Origin: Hericium rajendrae
Taxonomy: Eukaryota; Basidiomycota; Agaricomycetes; Russulales; Hericiaceae
Direction: 5' to 3'
DNA: 64,000 nucleotides
Assembly (NCBI GenBank): GCA_033439255.1
Contig: CM065887.1
Coordinates: 1,860,001 to 1,924,000 of the forward strand
Below, piece by piece: positions 5,220-57,492 of the stretch; the stretch's first letter is position 1; every line of letters begins with the position of its first letter. The position numbers and the translations under genes are program-made. Under the pieces are notes generated by a model. The model saw only the letters and a program-made list of their open reading frames with translations. It was not told the origin of the DNA and ran no database searches.

Positions 5220-6133
5220 CATCTGAGAAATTTACTACTAGTATATAACACTATGTAGGCTATATAGCTGTCCTAGGTCCATAGCTGTTCTCTTTTCTAC
5301 ATAGCAGTCTCATAGCAGTCAAGTAATCTATGCATAGCTATTATAGCTTGCTATAGCTACCATAGCATAGAGTATAAACTATCATAGCTATCATAGCTGC
5401 TATAGCATAGGGTGTAAGATATCATAGCTATTATAGTATAAGATGACTATAGAAGCTATGTTAACTATATATTATATCTCTATTATTATATGATGTCTAG
5501 CTAGTAAGATTTCTTTCTACTCTATATCACTTCTGTTAAATATGTTGTTCTACTCAATTAACATTTAAATCAAAATTATTATCATCTTAATAACCTTATA
5601 TATATATCTTAGTCACAAATATTGAAAGTTTAAAAAGCATGATAATCTTATATAATTTTATCAAGAAATATTTCTAAAACAACAAAGATTATTACATATA
5701 TACAAAAGATAACAAACTAACAATAATTACAAAAAGTGAAAATGTAAAAAAAAAGAATACATTAGTATTAGAAGATAACAAAGATAACACATAACAACTT
5801 ACCAAACTAAAAAAAAAGGCGAAAACTAGCCAAGACAGTCTGAAAACATTAGTGTAAGGCATAATACAGCTTATCTAGTATAACTACAATAGTACTATAA
5901 TAAGTATGAATATATTAGCATAAGTTATAAGACAACAAGAACAAAAGCTTACCTTAAACAATAGAAAGAACAATGAACAATGACAAAAAGTTATCAAACA
6001 ATGATGAGGAGTGAGCAAACGGCAACAATGAGCGAGTAAATAATGGCAAGCAAGCAAGCGACGACGACAAAGGTGTCGACGTGGCAAGGGATGGTGGGGG
6101 TTAAAGAGCAAGAGGTAAAGTGCATCATGCAAG

Positions 6134-6167
6134 CCTTATATAGGATTCTCGGACGAAGCCGAGAATC
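6134..6167. promoter_or_regulatory. TATA core promoter and adjoining hairpin, copy A
   Basis: CCTTATATAGG reads as TATATAAG on the minus strand, a full TATA consensus, and as TTATATAG on the plus strand, so it may work both ways. It is preceded by GCATCATGCAAG, a word kept at the same place in copies B and C and, altered, in D and E. On its plus side, GATTCTCGG and CCGAGAATC form a 9-bp stem around ACGAAG. In copy D the equivalent stem has a different but still paired sequence. Confidence 0.6.
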
Positions 6168-6523
6168 GTGGCTGCTGGACACTGCCGAATGCCACGTCAG
6201 AGGCTAAGTATTAGATTTGGCTAACTTATACCCTACTACCTAGTAATATACTGTACTCTCATTACCAAGATAGCTCATGTATTCTACTGAGGTGCACAAT
6301 ATATAATTCGTGTTCTTTTTTCATATTTTTAGCTGTTTTATTTGATTTGTTGTGTCTCTTTGCACATTTGGTAGCTGAAGCCCTGAGTTAACACGTCGAG
6401 ACTTGCTACTTGTCACCACTCTCCCTTCTCCTCCTCCGTGTTACCTCCCTCCCTCCCTTTTTCACCCTCTTTCGAGCATCAACATGGTTGGAGTGAGCTT
6501 ATTTAGTAAGCAGAGGGCCGTTG

Positions 6524-6567
6524 GTGAGTAAATAAAGTATTCTTATCAGTTCCTTGTACTAATACAG
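6524..6567 (+). other. Conserved mini-intron, copy A
   Basis: GTGAGTAA donor, TACTAAT branch site and ACAG acceptor, 44 nt long. Introns at the same place occur in copy B (15591-15638), C (41857-41900), D (43480-43524) and E (45644-45689), all 44-48 nt. In this copy the last G of the acceptor is the first base of stem-loop 1. Confidence 0.65.
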
Positions 6568-6594
6568 AGTGTCGCTTGAGAACGAGTGACACTC
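6567..6594 (+). ncRNA. Stem-loop 1, copy A
   Basis: GAGTGTCGCT pairs with AGTGACACTC (10 bp including one G-U) around an 8-nt loop. An alternative hairpin, GAACGAGT/ACTCGTTC, overlaps the right arm, so two exclusive folds are possible. It abuts the mini-intron acceptor. Whether it acts as RNA or as a DNA structure is unknown. Confidence 0.5.
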
Positions 6595-6906
6595 GTTCTT
6601 TTGACACTCACACGTCTCCCTCCCATCTCCTATCTTGCCTTCAACTGCCCCCCTCTGCGCTCGCTACAGTGCCACTGCCGCCCTCTGCTGCCCGCGCATG
6701 CAACATCAATACCCCGCTTGCAACTACCACGTCACCCGCATCCTGACCTGCCCCTCTTTTGTGCGTACAGCCATGAACGATGCAGGCACAGCCACAAACA
6801 ACACAGGTATGGCCACAGACCTTGCGCGGACGTCGTTCTGCACCATCTGTGTTCTGTCAATGATATGCGCGTACTCGCCATGTCACTACCCACCATGCGC
6901 TGCAGA

Positions 6907-6936
6907 GTCCCGTTGCCATGGCAATGAGACTCGGGA
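6907..6936 (+). ncRNA. Stem-loop 2, copy A
   Basis: GTTGCC and GGCAAT pair around a central AT, with outer bases GTCCC and GGGAC also complementary but offset. Equivalent structures lie in B (15768-15791), C (48029-48052) and F (57151-57184), with a weaker one in E (46139-46158). Confidence 0.4.
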
Positions 6937-8007
6937 CATCTCGCCACACCTCAAACCCCATGTCTCGTGCAATGCCCTCTCACCTCAAATATGTGCACAC
7001 AACACCCCGAACAAGCATACAATGCCCCGACACACATGTTCAACACCCAGGTGCACCACACCCCGACGCCTCACATGCAGGCCCATGTGCGACCACTGCA
7101 CCTCATGCGCAGGCTTGCCACGTCGGGCCCACAACAGCCCAATGATGCCTCCTCGTGTGCCTCACGCCTCCGATGTGCAGGCCTGCAGCAGCACACATGG
7201 CCTCTGCACCTCGTCCTGACCTCCTGCACCTCTGCACGGGCCCTTTGCCTCGTGCACCCCTGCTACACCTCACGCATATCCCCAACACATCGTGCATGGG
7301 CCCGACGTCTGGTGCTGCCTCCTAGACACCGCCTGCACCTCAAGCACATTCACTGCAGCCTGGACATGCCTCCTGTGCACATTGCTTGCACCTTACACAC
7401 TGGCCTGCTGCCCCTTGCGCATGGCCCCTTGCCTTGCGCATTCTCTCGCCCTTTGCGCATGGGCCCACCGCGGCCCAGTGCCCCACGCATGAGCCTGCGA
7501 CTGCCCGACAGCTTGCGCATGGGCCCCTCCATCCCTGTGTCTTTCACATGCAGTTCCGCTATGTCATGCAGGCTCGCTGCACCTCATGTGTGCATGTTTT
7601 GTCATGCTCCACCAGTGGCACATGGTCCTACCTGCAGACTACATGTAATTAGGCACCTCCATTATAAGTACTTGTAGTATATTTGATTGTGATAGTAATG
7701 TCATTGAATATGATTAATTTTGACTTATAATTTTTTGTACCTAGTTGACTTGACATAGTACTAGTAGTACTTATAGTAGTCATAGCTCACCTAACTAAGT
7801 ATGATAGTGTATGATAGAGCTATATAATTTAAACTGTTGGCTATGAAAGCTATAATAATACTATATGACTGACACTATTAGCTATGGAAGCTATGAAAGC
7901 TCTCATAGCTCTACATAGCTGGATAAGCAAACTACATAGCTCTGATAGCTCAGTCATAGCACCTATAATATAACCTGCAGCTATATAAAATTTAGTTTTC
8001 TCAGATG

Positions 8008-8866: not shown

Positions 8867-8929
8867 CAGTCACTTAGTGCATTGAGGGAATGCCAGGCGA
8901 GCTTGACAAAGTGCCATTGTTGATTGGCC

Positions 8930-9700: not shown

Positions 9701-9737
9701 TGTTATTAGATCTCATGGAATCCTGTCAGACTCTATC

Positions 9738-14370: not shown

Positions 14371-14979
14371 CATCTGAAAAATGTACCAGTGCTATATTGC
14401 TCTATATAACCTATATAGAAGTCATAGCTCCATAGCAATCCTCTTTTATATATAGAACTTCATAGCTACAAAGCAGTCTATGATAAGCTATGTAGTCAGA
14501 TAGGATTGCTATACCTTGCTATGATAGCTATGATAGCTATCAGAGCATAAAGCATAGCTATGGTAGCTATAAAGGCTATGTCACTTATGCTATATATGTC
14601 TATTATTATATCATATCTAGCTTAATAGGATTGCTATCTATTCTATATCATCTTTAAGTAATATATTGTCTAACAATACTATAAAAATATTTTAATCATC
14701 TGAATTGTTTTATAAGCTTCACAATCATTATATCTTAGATAAACAAAACATCGAAAATTTAAACACATATCATTTTATCAAGAGAGACTAATATACAACA
14801 AAACTACATTAGACTATAAAGTTAAAGAGTCTTAATTATAAACATAAGTCAGACTAGATTAGATAAAAGATACAACACCAAGACTTATTCTGCAAAGACA
14901 ACAAAAAGCGAAAATGAAACCCTAAAGTCAACAACTGATTGTAAGTAGACAAAGAAAGAACATTATATATAAGACTTAC

Positions 14980-15010
14980 CAAAGAGAAGAAAAAGCGAAA
15001 ATTTTAAAGT
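14980..15010 (-). other. Splice-flanked micro-exon-like motif, copy B
   Basis: On the minus strand: acceptor TTGTAG, a 31-nt segment with ATTTTCGCTTTTTC, then donor GTAAGTC. The equivalent in other copies is 21-24 nt (A 5803-5825; C 41088-41111 and 41171-41193; D 42791-42811; E 44949-44972 and 45036-45058). No open frame is conserved across copies. Confidence 0.5.
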
Positions 15011-15172
15011 CTACAAAGATAAAACATAAGTATAAGTATTAATTGACAACATAATAAGATGAGGACTCACCGAATATAAAGAGTTGAAGAGAGAGAGAGG
15101 AGAGAAGGATGAAAGATGAAAGACGAGAGATGGTAGTGGTAGGGAAGAGAGAGAGGACGCGCATCATGCATG

Positions 15173-15183
15173 CCTTATATAGG
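15173..15183. promoter_or_regulatory. TATA core promoter, copy B
   Basis: CCTTATATAGG preceded by GCATCATGCATG. The minus-strand reading (TATATAAG) is followed by a pyrimidine-rich leader and a GTGAGTCC donor; the plus-strand reading leads to the leader before the mini-intron. Confidence 0.55.
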
Positions 15184-15637
15184 CGAGCACGTCGGAGCCC
15201 GAATTGCAGCTGGCCGGTGGTTGCCGGGCGCCGCGGCAGAGGCTACTGCTTTAGATCTCACTAAGGTAGATAGGTCGCTCAGGACAGTACAGTAGAGTAG
15301 ACATGTATCTGGCTCATTGATAGTCTAGATACAACAATTTTATACTTGCTGCCATTTTTTTGGATTTTGAAACATTTGATTTGATTTGTTGGACTCGAAA
15401 CCGCCAGCCACGCGAGTCGAGTGCTGTGACTGCACTCGACGTGCGACTCGGACTTGATGCGTTCCTTCGTCCACCACTCCACCTCCACCACTCCCCACTC
15501 CCCCTTCCCTCGTTTCATTCTTTTTCCACCGGCAAGGCGCGGTGTCGTTCGATGGTCAGAAAGGATAGCAGGGACGTCGGGGGCCTCTTGGTAAGCAATT
15601 TTATTGTTTTTTCCCTGTCTTTGTGCTAATCAAACAA

Positions 15638-15665
15638 GTATCATTCGTGCATGCACGAATGATAC
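15638..15665 (+). ncRNA. Stem-loop 1, copy B
   Basis: A perfect palindrome: GTATCATTCGTGCA pairs with TGCACGAATGATAC. The first G is the last base of the mini-intron acceptor (15637-15638). Confidence 0.5.
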
Positions 15666-17109
15666 TCGTGTGTCTTCTCGTGGCCACGTCTCGCATTTGA
15701 CACCCTGCGCCTACGTATTTGCCCCATCCCACTCCCTCGATAACGCTGTCGATGATGCCAATGTTAGGTCTCATTGCTGCGGCAACAAGACTCGACCAAA
15801 CATCGTTCGACATGCTCTGCCTCCGTCCTCTCCCGCAACACCCGCGTCCAAGCCCCCGCTCCCGCACCTGTTCCCATCCCCGTCACCGTTCCCGTCCCCA
15901 TCCCTGTCCCCACTGCCAGCGCACACGTGCCCGAGCACGCATGCCCGACATGTGTGCGTGTGGCCCCGCATGCATGCATGGGGCCATGCCTGCCTGCAAG
16001 TCGTTGTGCATGGCCGCAGATGACCGCCAGCGCATCCGTGCATGTGCACGCTGTGCAGGCAACTATGGACTGCGTGCCTGGGCCACACACACCGGCGGAC
16101 GACCACGCCAGCCTGCCAGCACACCCACTCACGTGCAGGCAGCCTCGGAGGATCTGCCAGTGTACGCATGCACGTGGCGCTATGCGCGGCTGCGGGTGAC
16201 CTCAACGGCACGAACTGCCCTGCCAGCAAGCACGACCTTGCTCGGCATGCACGCAACCACACATGGCGTCGTCTGCATGCACGAGGCTGCATGGCCCCGT
16301 CTGCCACATCCCCGTCTGCCGCATTCCCACCTTCCCGCGTCCCCGCCTTCCCACGTCCCTGCCCTCCTGTCTCCGGCCCTGCCCTCGCCATGTCGCGACT
16401 CTGCCCTGCCCTCGCCGCGTCACAGCCCCGCCCTGCCTGCGCCGGCCGTGGATGATCGCGCTCATGCAACCATACACGCACGCACAACCACAATGCACGC
16501 ACACAACAACGGCGCAGGCAGCCATGTGCGACGCCCTCTGCATGTCATGTGAGGCCACGCACACTGGCGACAATGCATGCACGCCGGCGACAGCGCTGTT
16601 GCGCACGCATATGCATTCGGGTAGGCGCCGGGCTGCCTCACTGAGCGTCGTGTCATGCACACAGGCGGCATGCATTGTTGGCTACGCACCACCAGCCGCG
16701 ACGACGGGTACCACATCATATGAGGTTATGTGCATGCGAGGTCCATACAGCTTAACTCATTTTGTATTTAGGTACTTTTATAATGTAACACATCATTGTG
16801 CAATAATGATATGATGCTATGGATCCATCTAATTGAAGAAATCTGACTTGATATTTTTGGTGTCTGTCTGATTTAGCATAGTCAGTATAGTACTCATAGA
16901 AGCCATAGTCCTTCTTACTAAGTAGAATAGCTCTATGTATTTGACAGTACAAGCTATGTAGGCTATTTACTTTAAATAATTAACTATAGAGGCTATGATA
17001 GCTCCCATAGCTCTACATAGCTTGACTGATCAAAATCATAGACTCCATAGCCTTCCTATAGGACCCATAGCTTGACTCTTTGCTATATAAAAATTAGATT
17101 TTTCAGATG

Positions 17110-21563: not shown

Positions 21564-23169
21564 CATACACCTGCCTCACCTCCCTACTATTGCCCATCAT
21601 ACCTCTCTTCTTTGAACCCTTCACCACTGACATCTTCACCATATCTCGACATCCATTCCATCAACCTCATCTCCCCTTCCTCATCACCAACACCATTGAG
21701 GGCAGTGCACTCATTCCCCTCCTCTGCTATTGTGCTGTGAAGCATTGGGAAGCCGAAGGAGTTTGGATTCGATTGAGATCGTGGAAATCACGTGCAGGTG
21801 CTATCTCCATTGCCTTATACATGCAAATTCGAGTTGCTTTTGACGTTGACTTGCAAGAATTCACGTTTGGTGCCTTGGACATCGCCTACCACTGTTGCCA
21901 ACCCAACCGAGGATCTCCTGCGAGCATTCTGCCATCGACCTCATTTCCCTTTTGCACACTAGGTTTTTTCACCCCAGAACCCTTGCCTGAGCCTGTGTGG
22001 GCCAGAGAATCCCTCGGTCACCGATTCCGCAGAACCCCGTACTCAGATTCCCTGTACCCTCGTGCCCTCGGTTGTCACCCAGTTGCGGCTGACTTCCTCT
22101 AGACCTCACCATTGATCCCACTGACCCCCATTATCAGACCACAGAACCATACCCACTTGGCATCTTTGCCTTGCTCAACAAATACTTCATCTACACCCTT
22201 TCTGGTATCATTCAAGTAGACTTCGTCACTTCGGACAAGGACAAGGATGCTCCTGCACGGTGGTACTTCCCTGATCGTGACAATGAGGCAGACCTCGAGC
22301 TTAACGACTTTGATGTCGCAGCTACAGAACACCGCTGCCAACACCCTGCTATCCCACTGCTTCCCACCATTGCTCTTTCTAGTGCAGATTCTTCCCCTGC
22401 TCGCACCGCACCACTTGTTGTTCCCCCAGGTATTACCTTCAACCTGGTAACCAACAACTGCTATGCATACTGCTCTGACACCAATCAGCTCGTAGTCAGT
22501 TGGAGACCCAGCCTCATAAAAGAAAGTGACCTGTGGTTTTGGCAGGCCAGTACCCTCTTCTTAACCGCTGCAGAACTTGCACTCTCTCAGACAGTTATAG
22601 AGAATCTCACTCAGCAACAAGCTACCTGCCTCAATACCCTTCGGGTTCCACTACCACCACCTGTTTTGATCCCTACCCCAGTACCAGTCCCCTCACCTGC
22701 TCCACCTGTTGCCACTGTTGCATCAACATCCACCGTCAACATCAAACCAATCATCGCCCCAGCTCCCCCTGTCCAGCCATCCATCAACATGTCCAACCCC
22801 AAGATTGGCATCAAACCTGCTCCCTTTGAGGGAGATCGTTCCAAGTCCAAGGAATTCCAGCTGCGTATTTGCTTATTCCTTTGCACCAACTCTGTCAGGT
22901 ATAAAGATGATACTGCCCAGATCTCCCTCTTTCTCAACCTCTGCCAGGGCCCCATTGCCGGCCAGTGGGCCACCCAGCATGTCGAGGAGATCCTTGAGGA
23001 TGATGACCTTGTGGCTGCAAATAAGTCTCCAGCTCATGTTCCTCACTACGCCAACCTCACTGCCCTTCGAACTCGCTTCAACTTGGACTTCTCTCCCCTT
23101 GATGACTCAAAGGACATCAGGAAACTTCGAAACTTTCTTTTTGGGCTTTTTTTGACTTTTTCAAATTTG

Positions 23170-23660
23170 ACATCTGTAAAAAGATAAATCAGACAATCAG
23201 ATAATTGTCTGGTTTCAGAAGTCATTCTTTTTTCAGACAAAACCAGATGAAACTTCAAAAACCAGACAAAACCAGACAAAAACCAGAAGGTATTAATAAA
23301 ATCAGATAAAATCAGAAAACTCAAAAAAACCAGACATACCTATAAAAATCAGACACACCTAAAAAAAACAGAAGAAACCAGAAGACAAAGTAAAAATCAG
23401 ATAAAAATCAGAATAAGACAATTAGATCAGACAAGTCAGATCAGACAAGTCAGATCAGACAAGTCAGGTCAGATCAGACAAGTCAGATCAGATAGTTCAG
23501 ATCAGATATAAAGTCAGATCAGACAAGTCAGATCAGATATAAAGTCAGATCAGATATAAAGTCAGATCAGATAGGTCAGATCAGATATAAAGTCAGATCA
23601 GATAGGTCAGATCAGATATAAAGTCAGATCAGATAGGTCAGATCATATATAAATCTAGAT
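23170..23660 (+). repeat. Left subterminal repeats of the Plavaka element
   Basis: Dense tandem copies of GTCAGATCAGATA and GTCAGATCAGACAA, most regular from 23410 to 23650. The core TCAGATA reappears in inverted form (TATCTGA) near the right end, as in subterminal transposase-binding arrays of CACTA-type elements. Confidence 0.8.
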
Positions 23661-23981
23661 CAGACTTATTTTTAAGATCAAACTTAGAATTCAGATCAGG
23701 CTCATACAAATCAAAATAATGACAGCAGCTCTAGATTCTGCAAATCAGGGTATAAAGTCAACCAAACCCCATACATAAGATCCAAAAGGTATGCATAGCA
23801 AAAATAGAGCATAGAAAATCAAAATCACAAAAAGTATGAGAGCAAAGAGATTAAAAAGATTTAGCAAAGTAATAAAAGGAAGTGAAAAGAATGACAATTA
23901 AAAAGACCATAAAAAGAAAATCAGAAACAAGACAAACCAGCAGAAACAAATCATCAAAAGTATGAGAAGACAATCCTGCAT
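23661..23981. other. A-rich stretch, no gene
   Basis: A-rich sequence with irregular AAAATCA words between the subterminal repeats and the end of the accessory gene; perhaps its 3' untranslated region. Confidence 0.4.
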
Positions 23982-26900: not shown

Positions 26901-28327
26901 ACAGGGGTGGGGGGTTTGGAGTTCCGAGGATGTGACTTGGGAGGGGCACCATTGTCGTGGATGACAACGACGATGCCAGACTTTTGTTAATGCAAAGAGA
27001 GTGATATTAGAACATGTTTTCGAATGACAAATACTACACGCACCTTGTGAGGGAGTCCCTTCTCGTTCTCATCCTCACCCTCCTGCCCTTCAAACTGGTT
27101 AGTTTCGTCCTCTGACTCAAACGCTGCGGTCGGTTGGGCTGCCTGGTGATGTCATCACGTACAGCTGGCTTGACGCGCAAAGTTGACCTTGCCTTGGGCA
27201 GGGACCAGTCGGGCCTTCGGCCATGTTTGCGTGAATCGAAACTGTACGGTGCGATGGTGAGCATGGAAAAGAGGTAAGCGCCGAGTAAGCACGATAGACG
27301 CCACATGTGTTGATTCGGACTTACCCATCGATCTGCTTACCCTTTCCTTTCGACTTGCTCGCCTTCTCAGTCTCAGCCTCAGCTCCTATATCACCCGAGT
27401 CCGCCATCTCGATATCAACATCCATCTCGTTTCCCGCCTCAGTGCTCCCCTCACTGCTCCCATCGTGCTCGTCTTCTGCGGGGTGCCAATCCAGATCGGC
27501 CAACGAATCGTCTTCATCATCTTCATTGTACAGGGCTTCATCATACAGCAGTTTGTGGTGCGGAGCTTCATCATACAGAGCTGAGTGGTTGTTAGATTCC
27601 TCATCACTGGGATCTGGGTCTTCGGTGAGTCTCAGTTAAGTGATAATTAGATCTATAACTCACGGTCTACTAGTTTCTCCCCCAGATCTTCAAACTGTTG
27701 CTCCAAGATCTCGATATCTTGCATCAAGCGCCTCGCCTTGTCGCGCTGTTGCTGGATCACTGCAATCCAAGCAGCCTTCTCTGTGGCAAAGTCAAGACCT
27801 GCTCCATTTACATCCCCCATCTCTCCTACTGCCTTCTGTGGTAGCTCGACTTCCCCATCCTCCATCTCAAGCTCGTGTCCAGTCGCAGGATCTTGTGCAG
27901 CCATTGCTCGAGATTGTAGCTGGCCTGGACTCTGATGCGGTGTATAATCTGCAGGCCGTTTCACGCGTGAGTACTCAAGTTCAAACAATATTATTTTGTG
28001 CTAACCCGTATGGTTTTTGACTTGGCCCCTTCCCCCGTCCTTGCCTTTCGTCCTATGCCTATCCCGATCCTGGCCATGATGCGGACGTGTCGCAATCACA
28101 ACATGAGGAACATTGCTATTGCTTGTTCTTCTCGACGACGACAATCGTGTGGTGCGCGTACTTGCATTGTATCGCCCGTTATGTGCAACCGCATCATCAG
28201 CCAAGAGTTCCACTTCGGAACGTCGTTTCTTGCACGGCGGCTTCGGTCCTTCCTCGTCCTCGGAAGCAGTAGGTGTGGTTACCTTCTGGTAAGTGATGGA
28301 CTCACTCTTCTTCCGTCTTGGAGGCAT
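23982..28327 (-). pseudogene. Plavaka accessory protein gene, 12 exons, one nonsense codon
   Basis: The start is ATG at 28325-28327 (MPPRRKKSES), with a basic N-terminus that may be a nuclear signal. A coiled-coil-like exon (ATEKAAWIAVIQQQRDKAR) ends in donor GTGAGT, and an acidic exon (DWHPAEDEHDGSSEGST) ends in GTAAGT. Two exons (about 26985-26356 and 26309-25738) hold tandem repeats of about 30 residues on the pattern ASFDEADS..ARSSRTGQPR..TD. A Ser/Pro-rich exon follows, and four C-terminal exons form a compact domain with WDKVFPTLPHKFSKQDP, MYEWRTGFGHKAI, LPEENRNTAIPVGAL and EHALTLWL. The gene ends at 23982. In exon 9 an in-frame TGA (24867-24869) stands where the sequence context suggests Trp. 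The domain resembles uncharacterised agaricomycete proteins linked to Plavaka elements; its role is unknown. All junctions except exon 1/2 have clear consensus sites. Confidence 0.82.
25740..26900 (-). repeat. Coding tandem repeats in the Plavaka accessory gene
   Basis: About ten units of roughly 87-93 bases, each encoding a version of ASFDE..S..ARS(S/T)R..QPR. They lie in two adjacent exons separated by an intron that also falls between units. The conserved Arg-x-x-Gln-Pro-Arg and Phe-Asp-Glu spots are separated by variable acidic or polar spacers, suggesting a disordered, multivalent region. Confidence 0.85.
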
Positions 28328-40528: not shown

Positions 40529-41461
40529 CATCTGAGAAAATCTACATGACTATAGAGCTCTATATAGATTATATAAATGTCATAGGGCCATAGCTATGCT
40601 ACCTATTCTATAGATGGCTATAGAAGGGGGTCATCTATAGAGTGCTATAGAGCTACTTAGGATAGCTATAAAGTGCTATGATAGCTATAGAGCTATAAAA
40701 GATAGCTATGATAACTATAGAGCTACAAGACATAGCTATAGAGCTATGAGAATAGCTATGTAGATTATATTCATTACAGATACTATAGATACTCTGATGA
40801 TTACAATTAGCTAAATGTTCTACATATTCTTAATAGATTATAATGTTATGATTTGAATTTATAGTCATACTAGACTTAGTGAAAGTAGACAAATATCTAC
40901 ATATTAATATATATAAATCATCCACAAAGATCACACAAAAGAGAAGAGAAGACAACAAAATTTCATTGACTAACTACAACATAATAGTATACTACAACAT
41001 TATACTACATAATATGCTAAACATAAAGAGCAATCTAAGACAACATAAACATTAGTAAAGATACATACAAAACACTACAAGACTTACCATTATTATAAAA
41101 AGCAAAAATTTCTAAAACAAATATATATTAGTATTAGAGGATACCCCAAAGAAAACAAAGTAAAGTTTACCAAACTAATAGAAAAGCGAAACCCTACTAG
41201 ACAATTCTAACACATCAATATAAGACATAACAAACTTTACCTAGTAAGTATACAAAGGTACTGATATAAGTACGAAGGCATTAACACAAAACATAAGAGA
41301 TTAAAGAATAAAGACTTACCTCAATAGAGATAGCAATGACGAGTAATAAACGATGACGATGGACGAAGCAATGATGATGAGTGAGCAGCCGATGATAACG
41401 AAGTGTAGACATAGCAAGACATGGTGGGGATAAAGAGCAAGAGGAACGTGCATCATGCAAG

Positions 41462-41472
41462 CCTTATATACG
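41462..41472. promoter_or_regulatory. TATA core promoter, copy C
   Basis: CCTTATATACG, preceded by GCATCATGCAAG exactly as in copy A. Confidence 0.55.
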
Positions 41473-41856
41473 AATCTCGGGCGAAGCCAAGAATCATGGC
41501 TGTCAGGCATTGCCGAGCAGTGTGTCAGAGACTAAGTACTAGATTTTGATATCTTGACCCTGCTGTCCAGTAGTATACCATATGCTTGTCAACAATGTAG
41601 CTCATTTATTGTACTAAGATACATGATACATAGTTTGCTTCTTTTTCTCATATTTCTAGCTATTTAATTTGATTTGTTGTGTCTCTTCGTGCATTCAGTG
41701 GCCAAAGCACCAAGTTGATGTGTTGAGACTTCATCTTTCTCACCCACTGTCTCTCCCTTGCACTCCTCTCTGTTTTCTCCCTTCCTCCCTCTTTTTTGTT
41801 CTCTATTGACTACCAACATGGACAGGGTGGATTGTGGTAGATGAAGAGGGCTTCAG

Positions 41857-41929
41857 GTGAGTAATAAAAGTCCTCTGATTACTTTTTCATACTAATCAAG
41901 AGAGTGTCGCTCGAGAACGAGTGACACTC
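41857..41929 (+). ncRNA. Mini-intron and stem-loop 1, copy C
   Basis: The intron is 41857-41900 (GTGAGTAA, branch ACTAATC, AAG acceptor). The stem-loop is 41902-41929: GAGTGTCGCTC pairs with GAGTGACACTC (11 bp, one G-U) around GAGAAC. The overlapping alternative GAACGAGT/ACTCGTTC is also present, as in copy A. Confidence 0.5.
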
Positions 41930-42589
41930 GTTCTTCATGCCCTCTCCAGCAACACCCTCATGCCTCCTATCACCCATTTCACATCCCTGTCGCTCCCTTT
42001 GCCTTCAACTGCTCCCTCTGCACTCTCAACGATGCTGCCAATGCCCCCTTCTGCCTGTGCACACAACCCCAACATCCTATGCCGAAGCCATCCTGTCATC
42101 CGTACATCTGAAAAACTTACAAGTGGTACATAGCTCTATGAAGTCTACATAGATTTCATAGTTCCATAGCACTGCCCTTTTCTCTATAGCCCACATAGCT
42201 AAAGAGAGATGCTATATAGTGCTATAGAGCTCAAGGGGGATGCTATGAAGTGCTATGAGAGCTATGAGAGCTGACTATGCAGCTATGATAGTATGGCTAG
42301 CTATCAAAGCTATAAGTGTCTATCAAAGCTATAAGACTTATATGTCTTACATATCCTATACTCAATATATATCTCACATATCCTACATTCAATATGTGTC
42401 TCACATATTCTATATTCAACATGTATCTTAAATATCTTATATTCAATATGTAGACCTGATATATATATTGAAATCATAAAATCTATTAGAACTATAAATC
42501 TTTTCCATAGTCATATCAGAATTAATAACACAAAATCACACAAAGATAAATCATTTCAATGCATCAAAATTATATTGATATTATAAACA

Positions 42590-42750
42590 CTATTATTAAC
42601 TAAAAAGCAAAAATATATATGTAAGATAAGATAAGTAAAATAAGATAAGTAAAATATATAAGATAAGATAAGTAAGATATAAAAAGTAAGATAAGTAAGA
42701 TAAGATAAGATCATAAGAAAATATAAGTAAGATAAGATAAGATAAGAAAA
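42590..42750. repeat. AT-rich short repeat in copy D
   Basis: Irregular tandem of AAGATAAGTA words, about 15 units. Not seen at this place in the other copies, so it probably expanded after insertion. Confidence 0.65.
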
Positions 42751-43080
42751 CATTAGTCTTAGAAGATAAAGATAACACATAGAGATTTACCAAAGTAACA
42801 AAAAGTGAAATCTAAGAGACAACTTGAAGACATCAGTATTAGTATGAACAATAAGAGACCAATAATGAAAGGTTAGCTTGAAGACAGCAACAACGAGCAA
42901 GAAATGACACTCAACGAGTAAGAAATGACGACAAACGAGTAAGAAACAATGACAAATGAGTAAGAGACAACGACAAGCAAGTAAGAGATGACGACAAGCG
43001 AGTAAAGGACATCGACGAAGGTGTCGATGTGGCAGGAGACAGTGGGGGTTAAGAGCAAGAGGCAATGGGCATCGCGCGAG

Positions 43081-43113
43081 CCTTATATACAAATCCCAGG
43101 CAAAGCTGGGATT
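43081..43113. promoter_or_regulatory. TATA core promoter and hairpin, copy D
   Basis: CCTTATATAC preceded by GCATCGCGCGAG. The adjacent hairpin is AATCCCAG/CTGGGATT, against ATTCTCGG/CCGAGAAT in copy A: different bases, same pairing. Confidence 0.55.
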
Positions 43114-43479
43114 CGTGGCTGCTGGGCGCTTGCCGAGCATCGCATCAGAGACTGGGGCCAGACTTCACTAAATGGCCTTGGCTCTCTGTGAGTTTCACGT
43201 ATAGTAGATACTTACAATGCTCATTCGTTCGAATCGTATTTACAGCTTATGACTCTACTGTTTTTTTCTAAATTTATGTGATTTTGCTTGATTTGTGGTG
43301 GTTCGAGGAACATAGCTTCACTCATTCGGTGGCTGAAGCACTGAATGCGTGTCTTAGTTCGTCTTGTCCCTACCACCATCACTCCCGTCTCTTGCCCACC
43401 CCTCCTCTCTCTATCCCTCTTCTTGCCCTCATTGGATCGAACACCGGAGGAGGTTGGTAGGATGTCGAGGGCTACAAAG

Positions 43480-43553
43480 GTGAGTAAAAAAAACGTGTTG
43501 ATTCGTTCATTGGTGCTAACTCAGAGAGTATCACTTGAATGAGCAATACTCTC
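43480..43553 (+). ncRNA. Mini-intron and stem-loop 1, copy D
   Basis: Intron 43480-43524 (GTGAGTAA, branch GTGCTAAC, CAG acceptor). Stem GAGAGTAT/ATACTCTC (8 bp) with two mismatches further in, then a short inner CT/AG pair. Confidence 0.45.
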
Positions 43554-44948
43554 GATTTACTTCATCCTCGCTGCCCCTCCCTTCATCTCACCTCTCGCCA
43601 TCATCTCCACATTGTCAGACTCCCTGCCGACATCGCTGCCATTCCCACAGGGGCTGGCGCGCCATCTCCAACAACCGCGACTGCATGCGCTGGTGCATGC
43701 ACACACCGGACAACGTGTCTGCGAGCCTGCCACTGGGCTCTGCCCCTCTCGCATGGCCTCGCCCATCCTGCATTGCTGCCCGGTGGGCCAGCTACCCTGT
43801 GCATGGCCTCCCCGTCTTGTGCAGGAGCCGATGTGTTGCAGCGATCCTGCCTTGGTCCATGTGCACGGCCAGTGGGACGGGCACACATGCACGCACGTCG
43901 CCCATGGCTGTGCGCAGTCATATCGCAGCCTGATGCCTTGCATGTGAGCCCTGCATGCCACATTTCACGTCGCTGTCTCACATGCAGCTAGTGCGACTCA
44001 CGCGCAGGCTTACCGTGCCATGCACGGGCCTGCGGCAGCACCCCGACGTCGCCAGCACCCCGACATCGCCAGCACCCCGACGTCACCAGCCCGCCGACAT
44101 TGCCAACTAGCCCACATCTCTGGCGCACGCAGGACTGCTGTGTTGCCACGGCCTCCGCGCCTGTATCTTGTGCACAGGCCCGGCACCTCAACCCTTGCGC
44201 ATGGGTCCCAAGCCTCATGCACGCCTGTCACGTCACATGCATGCCCATCATGTTGCACATGCCCGCCATGTCACGAGCATGCCCGCCATGTCTCGCGCAC
44301 CCTGCCATGTCTCGCGCACCCCCGCCATGTCTCGCGCATCTCTGCCACGTCTCACACACCCCTGCCACGTCTCGCACATGCCCTCAATGCATTGTGCACA
44401 TGCCCACCGTCTCGGCATACCACCCGCACCTTGTGCATGCATCAGGGAAATGAACAGGTTCTATATAGCTCTATAAGTCCTACATAGATTTCCTAGGGCC
44501 ATAGCAATGTCAAGTTCTACATAGCTCATATAGCTGTAGTGAGATGCTATGTAGTGCTATGTAGCTTGGGTAGGTTGCTATGTAGCTCTATGATAGCTAT
44601 GATAGCTTTCTAATCAGCTATGATGTCTATCATAGCAGATCTAACTATACAATGTATGGAAGATATCTCACTGATGTAAGTTATACTCAGTAGACACATC
44701 TATAAACTCTATCATAGCTACATTTCTAAACTTCATTATATAGCTTTAGTAGACTTCATAAAAGTCTACAATATTATATTCACTTTTATCACATAAAAAT
44801 CAGACATCAAACAATATAAGATCACATCAAAAAAGATTATATTCAAAATCTAATAATCTATTATATAACTAAACTAAGTGTACATATATCTAGCAAGATA
44901 TATGTTAATCATAATATCACAAGGTTATATATAAGCAAGAAAACTTAC

Positions 44949-45058
44949 CAACAATTGGAAAAAAGCGAAAATCTAGACTAGAGATTGTCAACAAAGATAA
45001 TGTAGGAAGTCTACAAGTTCATGATGAGTACTTACCAAAAAGACAAAAAGGCGAAAAT
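44949..45058 (-). other. Pair of micro-exon-like motifs, copy E
   Basis: On the minus strand there are two segments, 45058-45036 (23 nt) and 44972-44949 (24 nt). Both have the form AG/ATTTTCGCYTTTTT...TTG/GTAAGT and are separated by a short intron-sized gap of about 63 nt. Confidence 0.5.
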
Positions 45059-45643
45059 CTAATAACCTAATAAGAGAATACAAGTCAGTATAAGAACATA
45101 AGACCAATAAACAAGAAAGCTTACCATAGGTAGTAGAGTCGAGAGCAAAAGTTAAAGTTAAGAGCGAAGAGCTTGAAGGTGGAGGAGATGGTGGTGGTAA
45201 GAGAGAGAGAGACGACGCGCATCGCGTGAGCTTTAAATAAGATTGCCAGCGGAGCCACAGTTATGTCCGGGCCAGGTACTGCCGGGTGCGGCAACAGAGG
45301 CTAGGCGGGCAGACTTCATTATCTTGTCTTTGCTGCCTGATTATTTACAGTACAGTAGATAGAAATAATGCTCATACAATATATCCGTCTGATTCATCTG
45401 CATTCAGGCCTTTTTTTTCCTGAAATTATATGATTTAATTTGATTTGTTGTGCCCTCGTTGATCGTAACTTTGCGCGCTCGGCTGGAGCAGTGAAGTCAC
45501 GTCGTTCGTCTTCGCACTCTCTTCTCTCTCCCTACCCACTCTCTCTCCTTTTAGTCTCTCCTCCTCCATCTCGTCTTCCGTTGCCTTCATTAACTTGAAG
45601 GGTTGTAGTATCCAGTGGGAGCTCGTGGGCTCAGGGCCATAAG

Positions 45644-45719
45644 GTAAGTAAAAAAGGTTTTATTTCGCATGTAATCTACTGATCTCGAGAGTACCACTCG
45701 TCGATGAGTGGTACTCTCG
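45644..45719 (+). ncRNA. Mini-intron and stem-loop 1, copy E
   Basis: Intron 45644-45689 (GTAAGTAA donor, CTACTGAT branch, CGAG acceptor). Stem CGAGAGTACCACTC/GAGTGGTACTCTCG, 14 perfect pairs around GTCGAT, the strongest in the family. The acceptor lies within the foot of the stem. Confidence 0.55.
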
Positions 45720-48700
45720 TTTTCTCTGCTGCTTTCGACTCCACACGACTCCCTCCCCCTTCGATCCTCAGCCGTCCCACTCGCACACCGTCCGTGCCCA
45801 CTTCCCCGTGTCATTCGCGTGCCGACTACCCGCCAACTTCGACGCCCTCGCCTGCCCGTGCGCACGGCCCCCGACTGCGCGCGCTGCCAACGTGGCTGCA
45901 CCAGCACATGCACGCACGCACGGCCCAGTCAACGTCACCCAGCTACATGTGCAGGCCCACGTGCAGGCCCGCATGCACAGATGGATGGCTGCGCACGGAC
46001 TCACCAATGTGCGCGTCTGCCCATGGCCCCGCCTCCGCAGCACCATCACCCGGCCTTGCACGCCCGCACCTGCATGCGCAGCATGCACGCCCCAGGCCGT
46101 CTGCACATGGGTGTGCCAGCACACGGTGCTGCATCAGACCCGTCACCGTGGCAACGGGCACCAACGGCCACGACTGCAGGCACCGGCTGCCAGCCGCTCA
46201 GCAGCCCGTGCACCCACGCAGCCTCCCCCACACCCTGCTCGCGCTTGGAACACTCCACACCCGCTCAACGCCAGTCTCTCACGCATGCTCCCTGGAGTGT
46301 GGGCACGTACTCCATGCTCCATACCACCGCGTGCCCGTGTGTGTTGCAGAACCTGTCGACGACCCATGCACGGTCCTGCGCACGCGCTAGGCGCGCGAAC
46401 GACACCACACATGACACTGGCAGTCCGCGCAGCAACGCACGGCCCCAGTGCCTCCCGCACGATCTCCGCGTCTCCCACATGACCTCCGCGCCTTGCTCAT
46501 GACCTCAACATCTGCGCACGGGCTCTCGTGCCTCGCGCGCCGCCCACCACATCGTGCAACGACACCGTGCCTCGTGTACAACCCCAACATGTCGCGCAGC
46601 GCCCGTGTACGACCCGAGCACATTGCGCACGACCCACGTGCCTCGTGCACGACATCCCGCATATCACCCTGCCGGACAGCATGTCGAGGCCGCATCAACG
46701 GTGCATCCCGCGCACCCGCTGTGCCTCTCGGTGCCATGTCATGGCATCATATGCTGCTACAGCGACATCGTTGGTCCATGTATGCCTGCCCGGACCGACT
46801 TATACCTAGTTATAAATGCAGTCATATTGACAATGATAACAAAGTAATCTTTAATAATCTTACTTGCACTACCCCAACCTGCAATATAGTAGATTTGACC
46901 TTGCTGTCTCTAGTGTCTATCTGACTAGTCATAGGGCACATAGCTTCCATAGCATGCCTATGAGGCTATGTAGCAACTATAACTATATCCCATGACTATA
47001 TAGTGCTATATATCTTGTGGCTGCTGCTATGGAACCTACGGTAGTCATCATAGTTCTATATAGGTAAAGAGGGTGCTATGTAGACCACATAGCTCTATGA
47101 TAGACCACATAACCTGATACTAGGCTATGTAGAATTCCCATTTCCCTGATGTGCTGCCCGCACCTCGCGTACACCCGCTGCGCCCCTCACGTCTCACGCA
47201 CAGGCCCACTGCCCACTGCCTCTTATGCACACTCCCCGTGCCTCACGTATGTGCCCATGGCAGTACAGCACCCCATGCATGGGCCTCTGCACCTCGCGCA
47301 CACACCCTACCACCCCGTGTGAGCCTAGCACCTCGCGCACGGGTCCGGGCCTCTGCATTTCCTGCGTGCAGTCTGCCCTCTTACGCACGGACCCCGCCAG
47401 CATGCGCACTCCCATGCATGGGCCCCGGGCTTCGGACGTGGCCATCGTGTCTTGCATGCAGCGTCATGCATACTAGTCGCGCCATTGTGTGCATGCATGC
47501 CCGCGAGCATGTGTGTTAGCCCCCACCTAATAATGTAGTATACTTGCATGTATTAGTAATTGAATATAAGTAAATTTGATCTGATTTTGAGTACTCGAAA
47601 TCATAGACTCTACACCAACTGCAGATGTTATAGCAGCCTGAGATTCCATAGCAACCTTATGAAGCTATAAACTGAACATAGTATCTATAGTGTATATAGA
47701 GAGAGACTTATGACATATAGGTTATATAGCAGACATAGCAATGTCCTATTACTATGTAGTGCTACATAGCTATCAACTGTAGCTATGGCAGCTATGATAG
47801 CTCTCATAGTCCTGTATAGCTGTGTGGCCCAACTACATAGCAGCCATAGCACTATAAAACTAGGCATAGCATTGGCTGGCAGCTATGTAGATTTCACATT
47901 TTTCAGATGTACCCTGGTGTCAGCTTTCGTGTGCAGGGCCATGGACTATGCATGGCCAGCATTGCACACTGCATGCACACTGTCAATGATGTGGGCATGG
48001 GCTACATCACCACCCATGCCCTCAATGTGTTCCATTGCTGTGGCAATGGGACTTGGGATGTCATTTGTGTGCATGACTCCATTCACCTCATGCTCTGCAC
48101 TCATGCCTCACACCCCACTCATGCCCGCAACAGCAAGGCCCTGCACGTGGATGCAAGATCCCGCCCCACGTGCCTCACACCTCGTATGCATGCACAACAC
48201 CTTTGCTCACACACAACAACTCGTCCATGTGTGCAGATCCCCGTCTGTGCTCGTAAGCCCTGCTCCCTCACCTGTCATGCCCTGCTTCCTCATCCTACAT
48301 CTGCATGCATGCATAATACCATGCACACCAGCTGAACACCCTGGTGCTCATGTGATGATGCTCTGCGCACTTGCCTGCCACAGCTGACATGCACACACCA
48401 TGACTGACATATGCACACCACGGCCGGGACACGCGCGCCAGGTCCTGCATGCATGCCAGGTCCCACATGAATGCAACACATCCCACACCTGCGCACAACA
48501 CTGCGTCCATGTGCACACCCCTTGGGCATGTGCGCACAGCCTTTGTGCTCTTGCGCAACATCCCGAGTCCGCATGCACCCATGTGCCATCCCCGACACAT
48601 GCACACCTGCTCGACATCCTGCCTGCCTGCTTGCTTAGTGCTTGCTTAGCGCCCACGCACAATGCCCTGCATGCAAGCAGAACACCCGGTATGCTTGTGC

Positions 48701-49259
48701 TCTGCCCTGCATCTGCGCACAATACCCGCGCTCATGTGCTCCGCCCCTCACATGCGTGCAAGGCCGTGCCCTCATGTGTGCCCTCCGTGCCCTCTGCACC
48801 TGCATGCTTCATGGGTGCCAGCACTTGGTGGCACTTAACGGCATCAGCACGGTGCTGGTGCTTGATGTATCTATAATTAGATTTTTCTAAACCTTTGTAC
48901 CTTTATGGCTAAAATAATATAAATGGATTTGATTTTCCTTTATGTGTGATTTATGTCAAATGTATGCTCTGAATACTGTGTATAGTTGCTTTATATTTCA
49001 TAGACATCATAGCATATAGCTTATACTTACAAGATGATATAGGTGACATAGGCTACATAGGATCTATAGCAAGTAGGAACATGTCCATAGCTTTCATAGC
49101 TGTAATAAGTAGCTATATAGGTCTATATAGATGACATATAGAGCTATGTAGTCTATATAGCTGCTATAGACCTATATATCTGTATAAGTCATATATATAA
49201 CTTCTCATAGCTTAGATACTAATAGCTGATTGCTATATAAATTTGGGATTTTTCAGATG

Positions 49260-54237: not shown

Positions 54238-55113
54238 CAAGAGATGATTTATCATGTGCCTCCGAAGGTTGAGCCCTTACTAGAGCATCCACTAAGGCTC
54301 TGTCAGATTTCTTCTGGGAACAAATATACTGTAGGTATGGAGCCATAGGCCAAGTCACCACTGACAATGGTCCAGAAGTAAAGGCTGGATTCCAATTGCT
54401 AATGGAACGTCTTGGTATCCCCCAAATCTCTATCTCTCCATACAACTCCAAAGCCAATGGGGGTGGTCGAAAGAGGCCACTTCATAATCAGAGAAGCAAT
54501 CATCAAATCCTGTGAGCACTGTCTTAGCTTGTGGCCAACAAAGGTCCACAAAGCTTTTTTTGCTGACAAGATCACAACAAGTCAAGTGACAGGATTCTCC
54601 CCATATTATCTGCTTCATGGTGTACACCCAGTTCTTCCATTTGATCTCACAGAAGCCACATTCTTAGTAGAAGGATTCCACTCTGGTATGAGCCCAGAAG
54701 ACTTGCTCACCCTTAGGATGTGCCAACTTGAAAAAAGAGAAGAAGATCTCGAGCATGCTGCAGCCTGTCTCAATCAGTATAGAGTCAAATCTAATGCTGA
54801 CTTTGAAGCCAAATTTAAGTTCAGACTACAGAAGAATGAATTTCAACTAGGAGACCTTGTTCTCATGAGAAATTCCATGATTGAAAACAGCCTAAACAAC
54901 AAGACCAAGCCTCGCTATCTTGCACCCTTTGAAGTTGATAGACAGACTAAAGGTGGATCATATGTTCTAAAAGAACTATATGGAATCTATCTACAAGATG
55001 CTTCAGCAGCTTCTCGACTTATTCTGTTTATCGCCCATGATGAAAAGATGCTCAAAAAGTTAGCCCAGACAATTCGATGCAAGCCATATGACCTAGATGG
55101 TTACAGGGTATAG
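54238..55113 (+). pseudogene. Integrase core and C-terminus of a second Ty3/gypsy lineage
   Basis: The frame opens with ARDDLSCASEG, a TGA (probably CGA), then SDFFWEQIYCRYGAIGQVTT and DNGPEVKAGF, SISPYNSKANG. One extra G in the GGGG run near 54463 shifts into VVERGHFIIREAIIKSCEH, followed by AFFADKITTSQVTGFSPYYL and HGVHPVLPFDLTEATFLVEG. A C-terminal domain follows with FQLGDLVLMRN and KPRYLAPFEVDRQTKGGSYV. The catalytic Asp-Asp-Glu surroundings are visible. The sequence differs clearly from the chromovirus integrase at 36.2-36.9 kb, so it is another lineage. No LTR or RT was found beside it. Confidence 0.88.
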
Positions 55114-55795
55114 CAGCCAAGCCCAAAAGTACATTGCAACTGAGGATGGTTGATTTCAAGTTCCCTGTGGATGTCATGCCCAAACTCGGTTTGGACAATG
55201 ACATGATACATCTAGCAGCAGACCCGTTTTGACATCCCATAAGCTGTTACATTGAGAGTGAGTATAATATTGAGTACAGGTTTTGGCATGAGTCTGAGAA
55301 TCTGATTGTCATTAACTTACCATAGGTGCCCAATCTGAGATCCAGGGAAAAACTGGAAGCGAGAGCAATATTAGAAGAACACTCACCAAAGTAGCACCCT
55401 TGCTGCAACCATGCTCAGCTGCCTTTGTCCCCACTGCTCCTCCCTCAATCCTCACACATACTCCCCACTACTTGGCCATGTCTTTGAAGAAAAACCAGCA
55501 GAGGTCTAGGTGATGCGAGAATACACATGTGATTCCTTTCCCAATTTGGACCCCTCAGACATGCAGCCTGTTCAGCTTGTCCCAAGAATATCAATCGCCA
55601 GTGATGCCTCTGTCAGCACTGTGTGCCCAGCCTCATGACAGCAGTTGAACAACACAGTCCCACTGGATGAACATGCCCTCCCCCCTCACACCCCATCCCC
55701 TCGTCCCTCATCCCTCCTCCAAATTATCAACGACCTCGATGACAAGGACGGATTCTCCTTTCCCACCCTATACAGGCACTTGCCAGTGGACGCTT
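55114..55795. other. Decayed sequence after the integrase, no supported gene
   Basis: Broken frames only; one reads VPLDEHALPPHTPSP and FSFPTLYRHLPVDASSG up to the TIR of copy F. The latter may be a transposon-protein fragment, but I do not recognise it. Confidence 0.4.
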
Positions 55796-57492
55796 CATCA
55801 GGTAAATCTGTTTTCTACATAGCTCTCAGCCAATGATATGACTCTTATGGTAGTGCTATGAACCCTATGTATTTTAGCAGCACAGCTATACAGCTCTATA
55901 AGACCTATCATAGCTTCTATAGTTGTTGGTGGAGGGTATATAGAGCTATGTAGTTATGACTGACAGCTATGGCAGCTATGTAATATTATAGGGTTGTTAT
56001 CAATGCTATAACTCCCACCATGTCATACCTAGAACCCAAAAATATATTAAGACAAGAGCACCCCAAGCCAGATGTATGAGTTCAAAAAAATTATATTGTG
56101 GACTCCGGAGGCATAACAAACAGTAAATAATTCTACTATACTAGGAGTCAAGTTGTAATGTGTTAAGACATTGTCAAAGGCAGGTGTGTCCGGGCATAGC
56201 TGGGCCACACGCTGGTATGTGCACACAGATGGGGTCAATGCGGGCATGCATGCACAGCGCCAGAGGCCAGCATGAGGCCCAGCCCGTGCGTGGGAGTGCC
56301 GTGCTGGTGGGGCCCGTGCGAGACAAGGTGGACAAGCGCACGAGGCGTGGTGGACCTGTGCAATGCAGCAGGCCTGCGCGTGGGAGACGTGGATGTGAGG
56401 TCTGTGAGTGAGGCACAAGGCAGCGTGCGTGAGGCATCAGGCTGCGGCAGGCCCATGTGCGATGTGACAAGCCTACGCATGAGATGTGATGGCCACACGC
56501 AAGAAGACGGCATGAGGTGCAAGGTGCGGGCCCCGTGCGAGATGTCGGGCTGCTGCAGGCCTGTGCACGACGTGCAACGACATGAGCAGAGCCACATGCT
56601 GCGATGTGTGCGGTGGGCAGAGCCACGCGCGATGTGCACATGCGCTGGCTTGTGTGCATTACCATTGGAGTGGGCCCAGGGGACTCTAGCTATGCCCTGA
56701 AGGAATGCAGATGAATGCTATGATGAGGCTGGCTACTGTGACATGCTACAGACATGGGCTATGCTGACTAAGCCCTTGGCTAACCACCGCTGCTGACCTA
56801 ACCTCTGGAGGGTGGGAGACCTAGTCTCCCCACTCCACCGTGCATGCTCGTGGCCATAATTCCTGGAGCTGTCAACATGCACGTGCTGGCACGTGTGCAC
56901 TGTGTGGCTGTCATGCAGCCAGGGTGGGGCCGCACACGACTTGTGCTGACGTGGCCATCTGCGCGGGCATGGGGAGTGCCTGCACATGTTGGGGCTGTGC
57001 ACGAACTGGTGGGAGCCCCCGCGCAAGGACAGTGTGACCCACAAGCCAGCATGTGCACGCACTCGTGGCCTTGTGCTGGTGCTGTCATGCAGGGCCATGC
57101 ATGCAGGCATGCGAGGACAGGCGGTGCAGTGCATGGCTGCATGATGTGTTGTCGAGTCTCGTTGCCACAGCAATGAGACTCGACACTGGCCCCTTGCGGG
57201 CCACCCACAGCTCTTGAGACGTACGCATGAGCATTGAGATTGCCCGTGCCTGGCTGCCACCATGCACGCCCATGGGAACCCCCATGTGTGGGTGACGTGC
57301 GCAGATGTTTGAGCATCTGCGGGCAGCAGCAGAAAGGCAGGGTGGTCAGAAACAGGCACGGAGAGAGAGGCAGCCGTGGAGAGGGAGACAGGCACGGATG
57401 ATGCACGAGAGGTGAGGCGGGGTGTCAAAGGGTGCACAAGGGGTTGTGGTGTCGAAGAATAGGCAAAACTGAGAGTCTTGCTCGATAACAAG
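55796..57492 (-). mobile_element. CATCAGG-ended family element, copy F, truncated
   Basis: The family end CATCAGGTAAATCTG is at 55796, followed by a TAGCTAT-rich block (55830-56010) and a GC-rich body in minus orientation (56160-57460). Stem-loop 2 (57151-57184) has a 15-bp stem, the longest seen. At 57465-57490 the minus strand reads GAGCAAGACTCTC, the right arm of stem-loop 1, and then stops where the hAT element begins. The promoter half is not next to it. Confidence 0.75.
57151..57184 (-). ncRNA. Stem-loop 2, copy F
   Basis: GTCGAGTCTCGTTGC pairs with GCAATGAGACTCGAC around CACA: 15 pairs, one G-U. The inner TTGC/GCAA core is shared with A, B and C. Confidence 0.5.

Follow-up and report, generated by a model that had tools for sequence, protein, structure and literature searches.

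A conserved, putatively spliced non-coding cassette with a covarying stem-loop in protein-less, Plavaka-type transposons of Hericium rajendrae

The common view is that a non-autonomous DNA transposon requires its ends alone. Maize dSpm, a non-autonomous element of the CACTA (En/Spm) type, is mobilised in trans, carries subterminal repeats, makes 2-3 bp duplications and has an interior made of deletion remnants of the coding element. Miniature inverted-repeat transposable elements (MITEs) are short, under about 800 bp, and have no internal organisation, and short interspersed elements (SINEs) are protein-less retroelements, transcribed by RNA polymerase III, with their own promoter and RNA structure. 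As far as the accessible text of the two sources goes, PlavakaB elements have 5'-CATCA..TGATG-3' termini and 2-3 bp duplications (Kojima 2025, PMC12730594), and the non-autonomous hAT families of Marasmius oreades measure 597-631 bp, are without an internal section and parasitise an autonomous relative via shared ends (PMC9674265). Here we describe five protein-less elements, A to E, in a stretch of 64,000 nucleotides of Hericium rajendrae (contig CM065887.1, here C10:1860001-1924000; hereafter the window), within a genome of 46.8 Mb in 19 contigs. An original prediction, made from the letters of the window, had pointed to a functional RNA or DNA structure in them; that they are non-autonomous transposons of Plavaka type and have moved recently was no part of it. 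Judged by their termini they use PlavakaB-type ends, and they are very probably Plavaka-type passengers, i.e. non-autonomous DNA transposons. We lean towards the reading that Plavaka mobilises them as passengers and that selection favours in them a bidirectional transcription unit, spliced and non-coding.

The elements resemble dSpm in their subterminal repeats, their 2-3 bp duplications and their presumed mobilisation in trans, whereas their interior holds no remnant of the Plavakas examined here. Like SINEs they are protein-less and have a promoter and RNA structure (predicted here), but they belong to the DNA transposons, their termini being inverted repeats and their signals of spliceosomal type. 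They share with PlavakaB the CATCA-type ends, the 2-bp duplications and relatives with a PF18759 transposase; the transposase and TET genes of PlavakaB are absent here, and the available part of its description (PMC12730594) mentions no conserved spliced-looking cassette. They also share the use of common ends with the Marasmius oreades hAT families (PMC9674265, in part), but E-type copies reach 2.6-2.96 kb and have a conserved, gene-like internal cassette, which likewise sets them apart from MITEs. In the accessible portions of open-licence papers (Repbase and the Kojima supplementary sequences excepted), no such element turned up in the literature on Plavaka or in that on non-autonomous elements with spliced non-coding RNA.

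The five copies and the two ends of E lie as follows.

5220..8007, plus strand: copy A, full-length, without matching 2-bp duplication (AG versus TA)
14371..17109, plus strand: copy B, full-length, duplication TA
40529..49259, plus strand: copy C, interrupted by D, duplication AT; stem-loop HP1 at 41903-41928
42105..47909, plus strand: copy D, interrupted by E, duplication TA; HP1 at 43527-43550
44440..47151, plus strand: copy E, full-length, duplication TG
44440..44700, plus strand: left terminal and subterminal repeats of E; among E-family copies the first 100 bp have a mean pairwise identity of 0.954
47002..47151, plus strand: right terminal and subterminal repeats of E

These copies are those of the original prediction, with the start of D moved from 42115 to 42105, and the duplications given there for B-E (TA, AT, TA, TG) are present; overall that observation is real, with minor corrections. 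D lies within C and E within D, and the CpG observed/expected ratio drops with nesting age (0.91 in E, 0.75 in D, 0.44 in C), which is what the nesting predicts. A-D end in CATCTG..CAGATG, a one-base variant of the CATCA type, and A and C start with CATCTGAGAA. PlavakaB termini are found in the E family and approximately in A-D, and the PlavakaB type of duplication in 16 of 18 E-type loci and four of the five window copies. As for the subterminal blocks said to be shared, exact TAGCTATGATAGC is limited to B and E within the window (318 + 286 matches genome-wide; reversed pattern, none), whereas dense GCTAT-type blocks stand at the left and right ends of all five. Similarity between copies by BLAST covers the ends and interior patches, a long interior match being confined to A and C (70%, 948 bp).

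Relatives of these copies are spread over the genome. The core of E (45195-45720) gave 19 near-full-length matches including itself, at 75-100% identity, and the cores of B and A, with scoring limited to 40 of 232 and 40 of 288 candidates, gave at least 41 and at least 45. Eighteen E-type loci other than E were retrieved, with sizes of 2616-2958 bp; CATCAGG..CCTGATG ends together with identical 2-bp duplications were present in 16 of them (one left end among these being CATCAGGAAA), L059 had both ends and no duplication, and the right end of L058 fell outside what the retrieved stretch resolved. The E-family terminus CATCAGGGAAATG matched 23 + 24 times genome-wide, mostly in pairs. Five copies on C12 (L047-L050 and L052) were 99.96-100% identical in the eight pairs compared; their duplications are AG, AG, AA, TC and TC, and their 500-bp flanks showed no mutual BLAST similarity. 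Near-identical copies with dissimilar flanks and their own duplications indicate that these five are separate, recent insertions. We also observed an E-type element in L065 (329-5709, duplication AT) that holds an inverted, CATCTGA-ended copy at 1518-4180, with intron and stem-loop modules at 2838-2936 (minus) and 4221-4318 (plus).

The Plavaka transposase (PF18759) has 132 matches in this genome and none in 14 control genomes. One element bearing it, L064 on C7 (6389 bp, CATCTGGGAAAC ends, duplication AA), is 80% identical to E over the left 161 bp and 75% over the right 127 bp, the alignment being confined to the ends. It carries PF18759 Plavaka in two adjacent open reading frames rightward (plus) and a DUF6532 protein leftward (minus). 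Among the 40 candidates scored of 145, its left 703 bp had one interrupted relative, at C1:4789300 (L066); the other matches were ends of other elements (terminal 129-208 bp, 71-83%). The window also contains a Plavaka, one of nine end pairs from a loose search, picked for its CATCAGG end and transposase span.

23115..32890, plus strand: window transposase-bearing Plavaka, CATCAGGAAACTTC ends, duplication GA

Its domain pieces (29161-30009 and 30065-30178) contain internal stop codons (introns or decay), and its subterminal repeats are unlike those of the protein-less group. From the shared ends and the near-identical copies at unrelated sites we infer that a Plavaka transposase would mobilise the group in trans.

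The internal order that had been proposed for the copies, i.e. minus-strand micro-exon motifs, TATA, mini-intron, stem-loop and GC-rich body, holds in A-E; the micro-exon motifs lie in an AT-rich arm that follows the left end, and the body is followed by the right end. In E, and for the mini-intron also in A and B, its parts are the following.

44949..44972, minus strand: micro-exon-like unit 2 of E (AG/ATTTTCGC...TTG/GTAAG), read from the sequence
45036..45058, minus strand: micro-exon-like unit 1 of E, 86 nt from unit 2, read likewise
45120..45124, minus strand: first minus-strand splice donor of E (GTAAG), predicted
45185..45245, no strand given: promoter/TATA block of E, conserved across lineages in the alignments
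45437..45451, plus strand: block of E with the TTTGATTTGTTGTG motif (range as tested), from the alignments
45644..45691, plus strand: predicted mini-intron of E (GTAAGT ... CTGAT ... AG)
45686..45719, plus strand: stem-loop HP1 of E at the predicted 3' splice site, from pattern and covariation
45720..46780, plus strand: GC-rich, CpG-rich, hypervariable body of E, without coding signature
6524..6593, plus strand: copy A, predicted mini-intron 5' splice site to HP1 end (HP1 6568-6593)
15591..15672, plus strand: copy B, predicted mini-intron and HP1

The leftward units (AG/ATTTTCGCTTTTTT..TTG/GTAAG, with variation) were found in 16 of the 17 elements scanned (A-E, nine of ten E-family copies, L063 and L061), with 20-22 nt from TTTTCGC to the donor and 82-86 nt between doubled units. 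None occurred on either strand in the 48,039 bp of the window outside the elements; genome-wide the pattern matched 91 times and its reversed control never. In the E family the two units have conservation values of 0.795 and 0.838, against 0.585 for the intervening 46 bp and 0.818 for the AT-rich arm, and a stricter spliced-exon pattern missed L051, L059 and L060. The pattern search on the rightward side required both intron signals, 5' splice site and branch point, within 85 nt and left their spacing free. In each of the distinct copies that it yielded (30 of 30), the stem starts 44-50 nt after the 5' splice site and is directly preceded by a branch point of CTRAY type. Copy B has no other AG close to the stem base, so that the AG at the base of HP1 is likely the 3' splice site, which HP1 would then hide in the precursor. 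A conserved micro-ORF (open reading frame) across the minus-strand micro-exons, with its ATG where exon 1 ends (E, L045-L050, L052 and L053), was considered and rejected, since it is absent in L044, L051, L054, L055, L059 and L060 (L043, L056 and L057 were left out of this check).

Conservation is concentrated in these parts. Nineteen lineages below 85% identity, reduced from 60 regions, have a mean pairwise identity of 52%, and the clearest conserved runs among them are the TATA block, CAGAGGCTA, TTTGATTTGTTGTG, AGGTRAGTA, TACTAAT and HP1; non-coding parts are kept at fixed places in diverged copies, as had been claimed. Within the E family (18 copies aligned, 11 of them non-redundant, the interrupted L058 excluded), identity is 0.945 in the HP1 arms, 0.938 at the branch point and 0.850 at the 5' splice site, against 0.719 in the plus-strand exon, 0.715 in the intron interior and 0.444 in the body, so that stem arms and branch point are better conserved than intron interior and body, the opposite of what would have told against the original prediction. 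Feature blocks averaged 0.865 and random blocks 0.778; the feature mean was reached in two of 5000 draws, and in 26 of 5000 when the TATA block was left out. The body retains its composition (GC 0.65-0.73, CpG observed/expected 0.97-1.36 in 18 copies) while its sequence changes fast. A coding body was rejected in the E family: there is no codon periodicity, and 22 of 110 indels of up to 30 nt were multiples of 3 (nine copy pairs sharing members), in agreement with the absence of a conserved protein reported before. Selection on the cassette is likely, and its preserved part has the look of an RNA gene rather than of a decayed protein gene.

HP1 has the consensus AGTRYCRCTC..GAGYGRYACT and a loop of 4-10 nt, most often of 6 nt (22 of 34 distinct modules). 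The regular expression used to find it asked for purine versus pyrimidine at the variable positions, with AGT/ACT fixed, and did not demand complementarity. In 28 distinct copies, 268 of the 280 cells of the 10-bp stem were Watson-Crick pairs, seven G-U and five A-C. A covariance-model search of 46 sources (the window plus 66 loci, less 21 overlapping or duplicate loci) gave 86 matches; 52 covered the whole module after filtering, of which 40 were distinct. Their 520 cells were 472 Watson-Crick, 21 G-U, 17 A-C and 10 other. One pair is C-G in 21 copies and T-A in 19, and another is A-T in 27, G-C in 10, C-G in two and G-T in one. In a separate count on 13 pairs, 96.2% of cells were paired against 89.7% in shuffles, double-changed cells numbered 33 against 12.1 (reached in 0 of 500), the covariation score was 0.299 against 0.176 (0 of 500), and seven pairs had changed on both sides against 4.5 (4 of 500); sliding the partner by 1-3 columns left 1-5 double-changed cells. 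On a tree of 36 upstream regions, partly unsure with eight long branches and three joins flagged by the tool, independent changes at pairs 3 to 6 (same/opposite/unchanged, median of pairings) were 3/0/1, 4/0/0, 1/0/1 and 2/0/3, and pair 7 had one, concordant in about half of the pairings. Pooled over pairs 3-6 this makes 10 concordant, 0 discordant and 5 uncompensated changes (sign test about 0.002 for 10 versus 0, pairs taken as independent). The covariation proposed earlier as a check is therefore present in HP1. Comparison with Rfam 15 revealed no known structured RNA family: 40500-49300 (C-E) had no match at an E-value of up to 1, and at gathering scores the window as a whole had none either.

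Several observations weigh against the reading that we favour. The ends of A-D are CATCTG where CATCA would be expected, and the Plavaka domain match of L064 has an in-frame stop inside (intron or decay), which makes L064 no more than a candidate autonomous partner. The blocks of the draw test were picked with the cross-lineage conservation known, and the CpG-rich bodies may reflect youth instead of selection. The micro-exon-like units are only moderately conserved in the E family and are absent from one of the 17 elements scanned. As to HP1, one of five measures was unremarkable (13 further pair types against 11.6, reached in 64 of 500 shuffles), and no single pair reaches significance, the independent changes being too few. 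G-U and A-C mismatches are about equal (21 and 17), which does not favour RNA pairing over a DNA palindrome. By eye, in a context of 370 nt, the stem folds as such in B, C and E and not in D, and A folds otherwise.

The plainest alternative is that the elements are deletion derivatives, the cassette being a relic of the promoter, 5' exons and stem within untranslated regions of an unsampled autonomous Plavaka, kept only by recent common descent; we regard this as rather unlikely. A divergent DUF6532/Plavaka layout exists in L064, and 11 of 15 DUF6532 loci have a Plavaka head-to-head with them at a distance of up to 13 kb, an arrangement in two directions that the protein-less elements share. 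The stem pattern CTRAYNNNGAGAGTRYCRCTY (281 matches genome-wide, none for the reversed control; a single sub-variant, with 100 of the 281 places listed, 94 of them on C1-C4) lies 4.1-5.7 kb downstream of a Plavaka at four of the places listed, two of them same-strand (C4:1697520 and C4:1921196, at 4.8 and 5.0 kb; separate insertions or element parts), and at two further listed places 7.1 and 9.3 kb upstream of one. On C1-C4 (94 of 281 matches), however, the pattern is absent from the 4 kb to the left and right of all 21 Plavaka places. Six Plavakas were compared, two complete (the window Plavaka and L064) and four partial (L039-L042, 4 kb each). The micro-exon motif is absent from all six, and so is the module at an E-value of up to 0.01; at up to 10, one weak, chance-level match each appeared in the window Plavaka and L039 (E-value about 2). 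Against the two complete Plavakas, the scores of promoter and module blocks stayed within the range of shuffles, and a promoter homology to L064 that was plausible by eye (GAGAGGACGACGCG) was dropped, with a best score of 27 against a shuffle maximum of 29. A decayed transposase interior, or an internal deletion of an examined Plavaka, is rejected for these elements; with L064 only the ends align. The search for an autonomous relative that would explain the interior yielded transposase-bearing relatives with similar ends, and the six examined are without the module. Recent descent also leaves unexplained the selective retention at 52% mean identity. Capture by Plavaka of a host bidirectional promoter with its first exons, in the manner of Pack-type elements, followed by spread, would fit the gene-like promoter and splice signals and their lack of resemblance to the examined Plavakas; we consider it very unlikely. 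No host source was found in a search that covered the E body alone, whose 30 matches were loci of the E family or else short and partial, mostly at known module places.

Other explanations concern the stem itself. It could act as DNA, as a site for a dimeric protein or as a cruciform in transposition, the adjacent splice-like signals then being promoter or binding motifs. The mismatches, without strand bias, and the folding, equal for both strands (27 of 28 each), speak for this. The original prediction, which named RNA or DNA, is partly supported: its fixed non-coding parts and the HP1 covariation bear it out, and the stem may act as either. A second palindrome, HP2, of the GTTGC-4-GCAAC type, has the fixed spacer expected of a dimer site (4 nt in nine of nine strong and eight of ten weak sites); the HP1 loop, however, varies from 4 to 10 nt, which counts for the RNA reading, and HP1 stands at a constant distance from the branch point and the 5' splice site. 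We judge a DNA role unlikely. Templated repair of quasi-palindromes is a known mutational mechanism, and compensatory changes produced by it without selection would keep palindromes perfect. Nearly all changes in HP1 pairs are transitions, as suits this mechanism, but it leaves unexplained that in 40 distinct copies the palindrome has stayed beside the same intron signals, and we find it very improbable.

Further features of the group are these.

6911..6926, plus strand: HP2 core of copy A (GTTGC-4-GCAAC type), from the sequence
15772..15787, plus strand: HP2 core of copy B, likewise
55793..57490, minus strand: right-hand fragment (right end, body, HP2 at 57160-57175), by BLAST to 57190 and by eye for the remainder
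61236..61467, plus strand: promoter-region fragment of the same group, by BLAST

The original prediction supplied no coordinates for its fragments F to H; the two fragments given here are those that were located. The right-hand one is apparently truncated inside HP1 near 57490 (by eye), as if the palindrome were a breakpoint. Besides A, B and this fragment, HP2 occurs in L023, L024, L026, L033, L058 and L065, with extended, variable arms. We take it to be similar to the RFX X-box. The string GTTGCCATGGCAAC co-occurs with RFX in the accessible text of two papers.

Among the Plavakas, DUF6532 is apparently an accessory gene. A 7.9-kb stretch of L066 has three modules (4791-4888, 5150-5248 and 5543-5638) beside an interrupted L064-like left half, two of them with AGTACTGCT-type arms, a further compensated variant. 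Near the left end of the window Plavaka, in the place that GCTAT repeats take in the protein-less group, a AAGTCAGATCAGATA minisatellite with a 31-bp period occupies 23480-23697. Elsewhere in the window, 8867-14140 is a very large nested inverted repeat with TAGACATTTT-type minisatellite units and arms of 838 bp (9311-10148 / 11974-12811, 99% complementary) and 452 bp (8867-9318 / 13689-14140, 94%). Ty3-type retroelement frames (reverse transcriptase, RNase H, integrase, chromodomain) lie at 34651-37677, and a repeat of about 420 bp, similar to a long terminal repeat and near retroelement frames, is found at four places (21127-21549, 37574-37996, 38469-38891 and 52097-52523), one copy being inverted and 472 bp from its neighbour.

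Returning to the reading of a passenger selected for its own transcription unit, a PlavakaB-type (CACTA-like) transposase would read the ends and the GCTAT subterminal repeats and move A-E in trans. In place of genes, the cassette would offer a promoter region with TATA and two units. The leftward one would carry the micro-exon-like splice signals; the rightward one would have an intron of about 45-50 nt, with its 3' splice site at the base of the covarying stem-loop, and would lead into a CpG-rich body of 1-1.3 kb, free to vary in sequence. The element would be selected for transcription and splicing, and the stem-loop may tune the use of the 3' splice site or the start of exon 2. Tentatively, spliced transcription and the CpG-rich body could keep the insertion in open, unmethylated chromatin, accessible to the transposase, as an anti-silencing step; judged from CpG decay, the genome would methylate repeats. 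In Cryptococcus neoformans, mRNA was lower after intron removal for most tested genes (PMC3744415, in part). It is a rather doubtful proposal that this is a transposon lineage whose sole products would be spliced, structured non-coding RNAs, a two-way RNA gene kept through deep diversification and acting for the element, by anti-silencing in cis or by governing, in trans, the mobility or the silencing of Plavaka.

If the promoter, the intron signals and the covarying stem are kept while most else turns over, selection in these transposons would extend beyond their ends. The young copies could show whether passengers stay mobile through transcription, and the family would provide a natural series of compensatory variants for a stem carrying a predicted 3' splice site.

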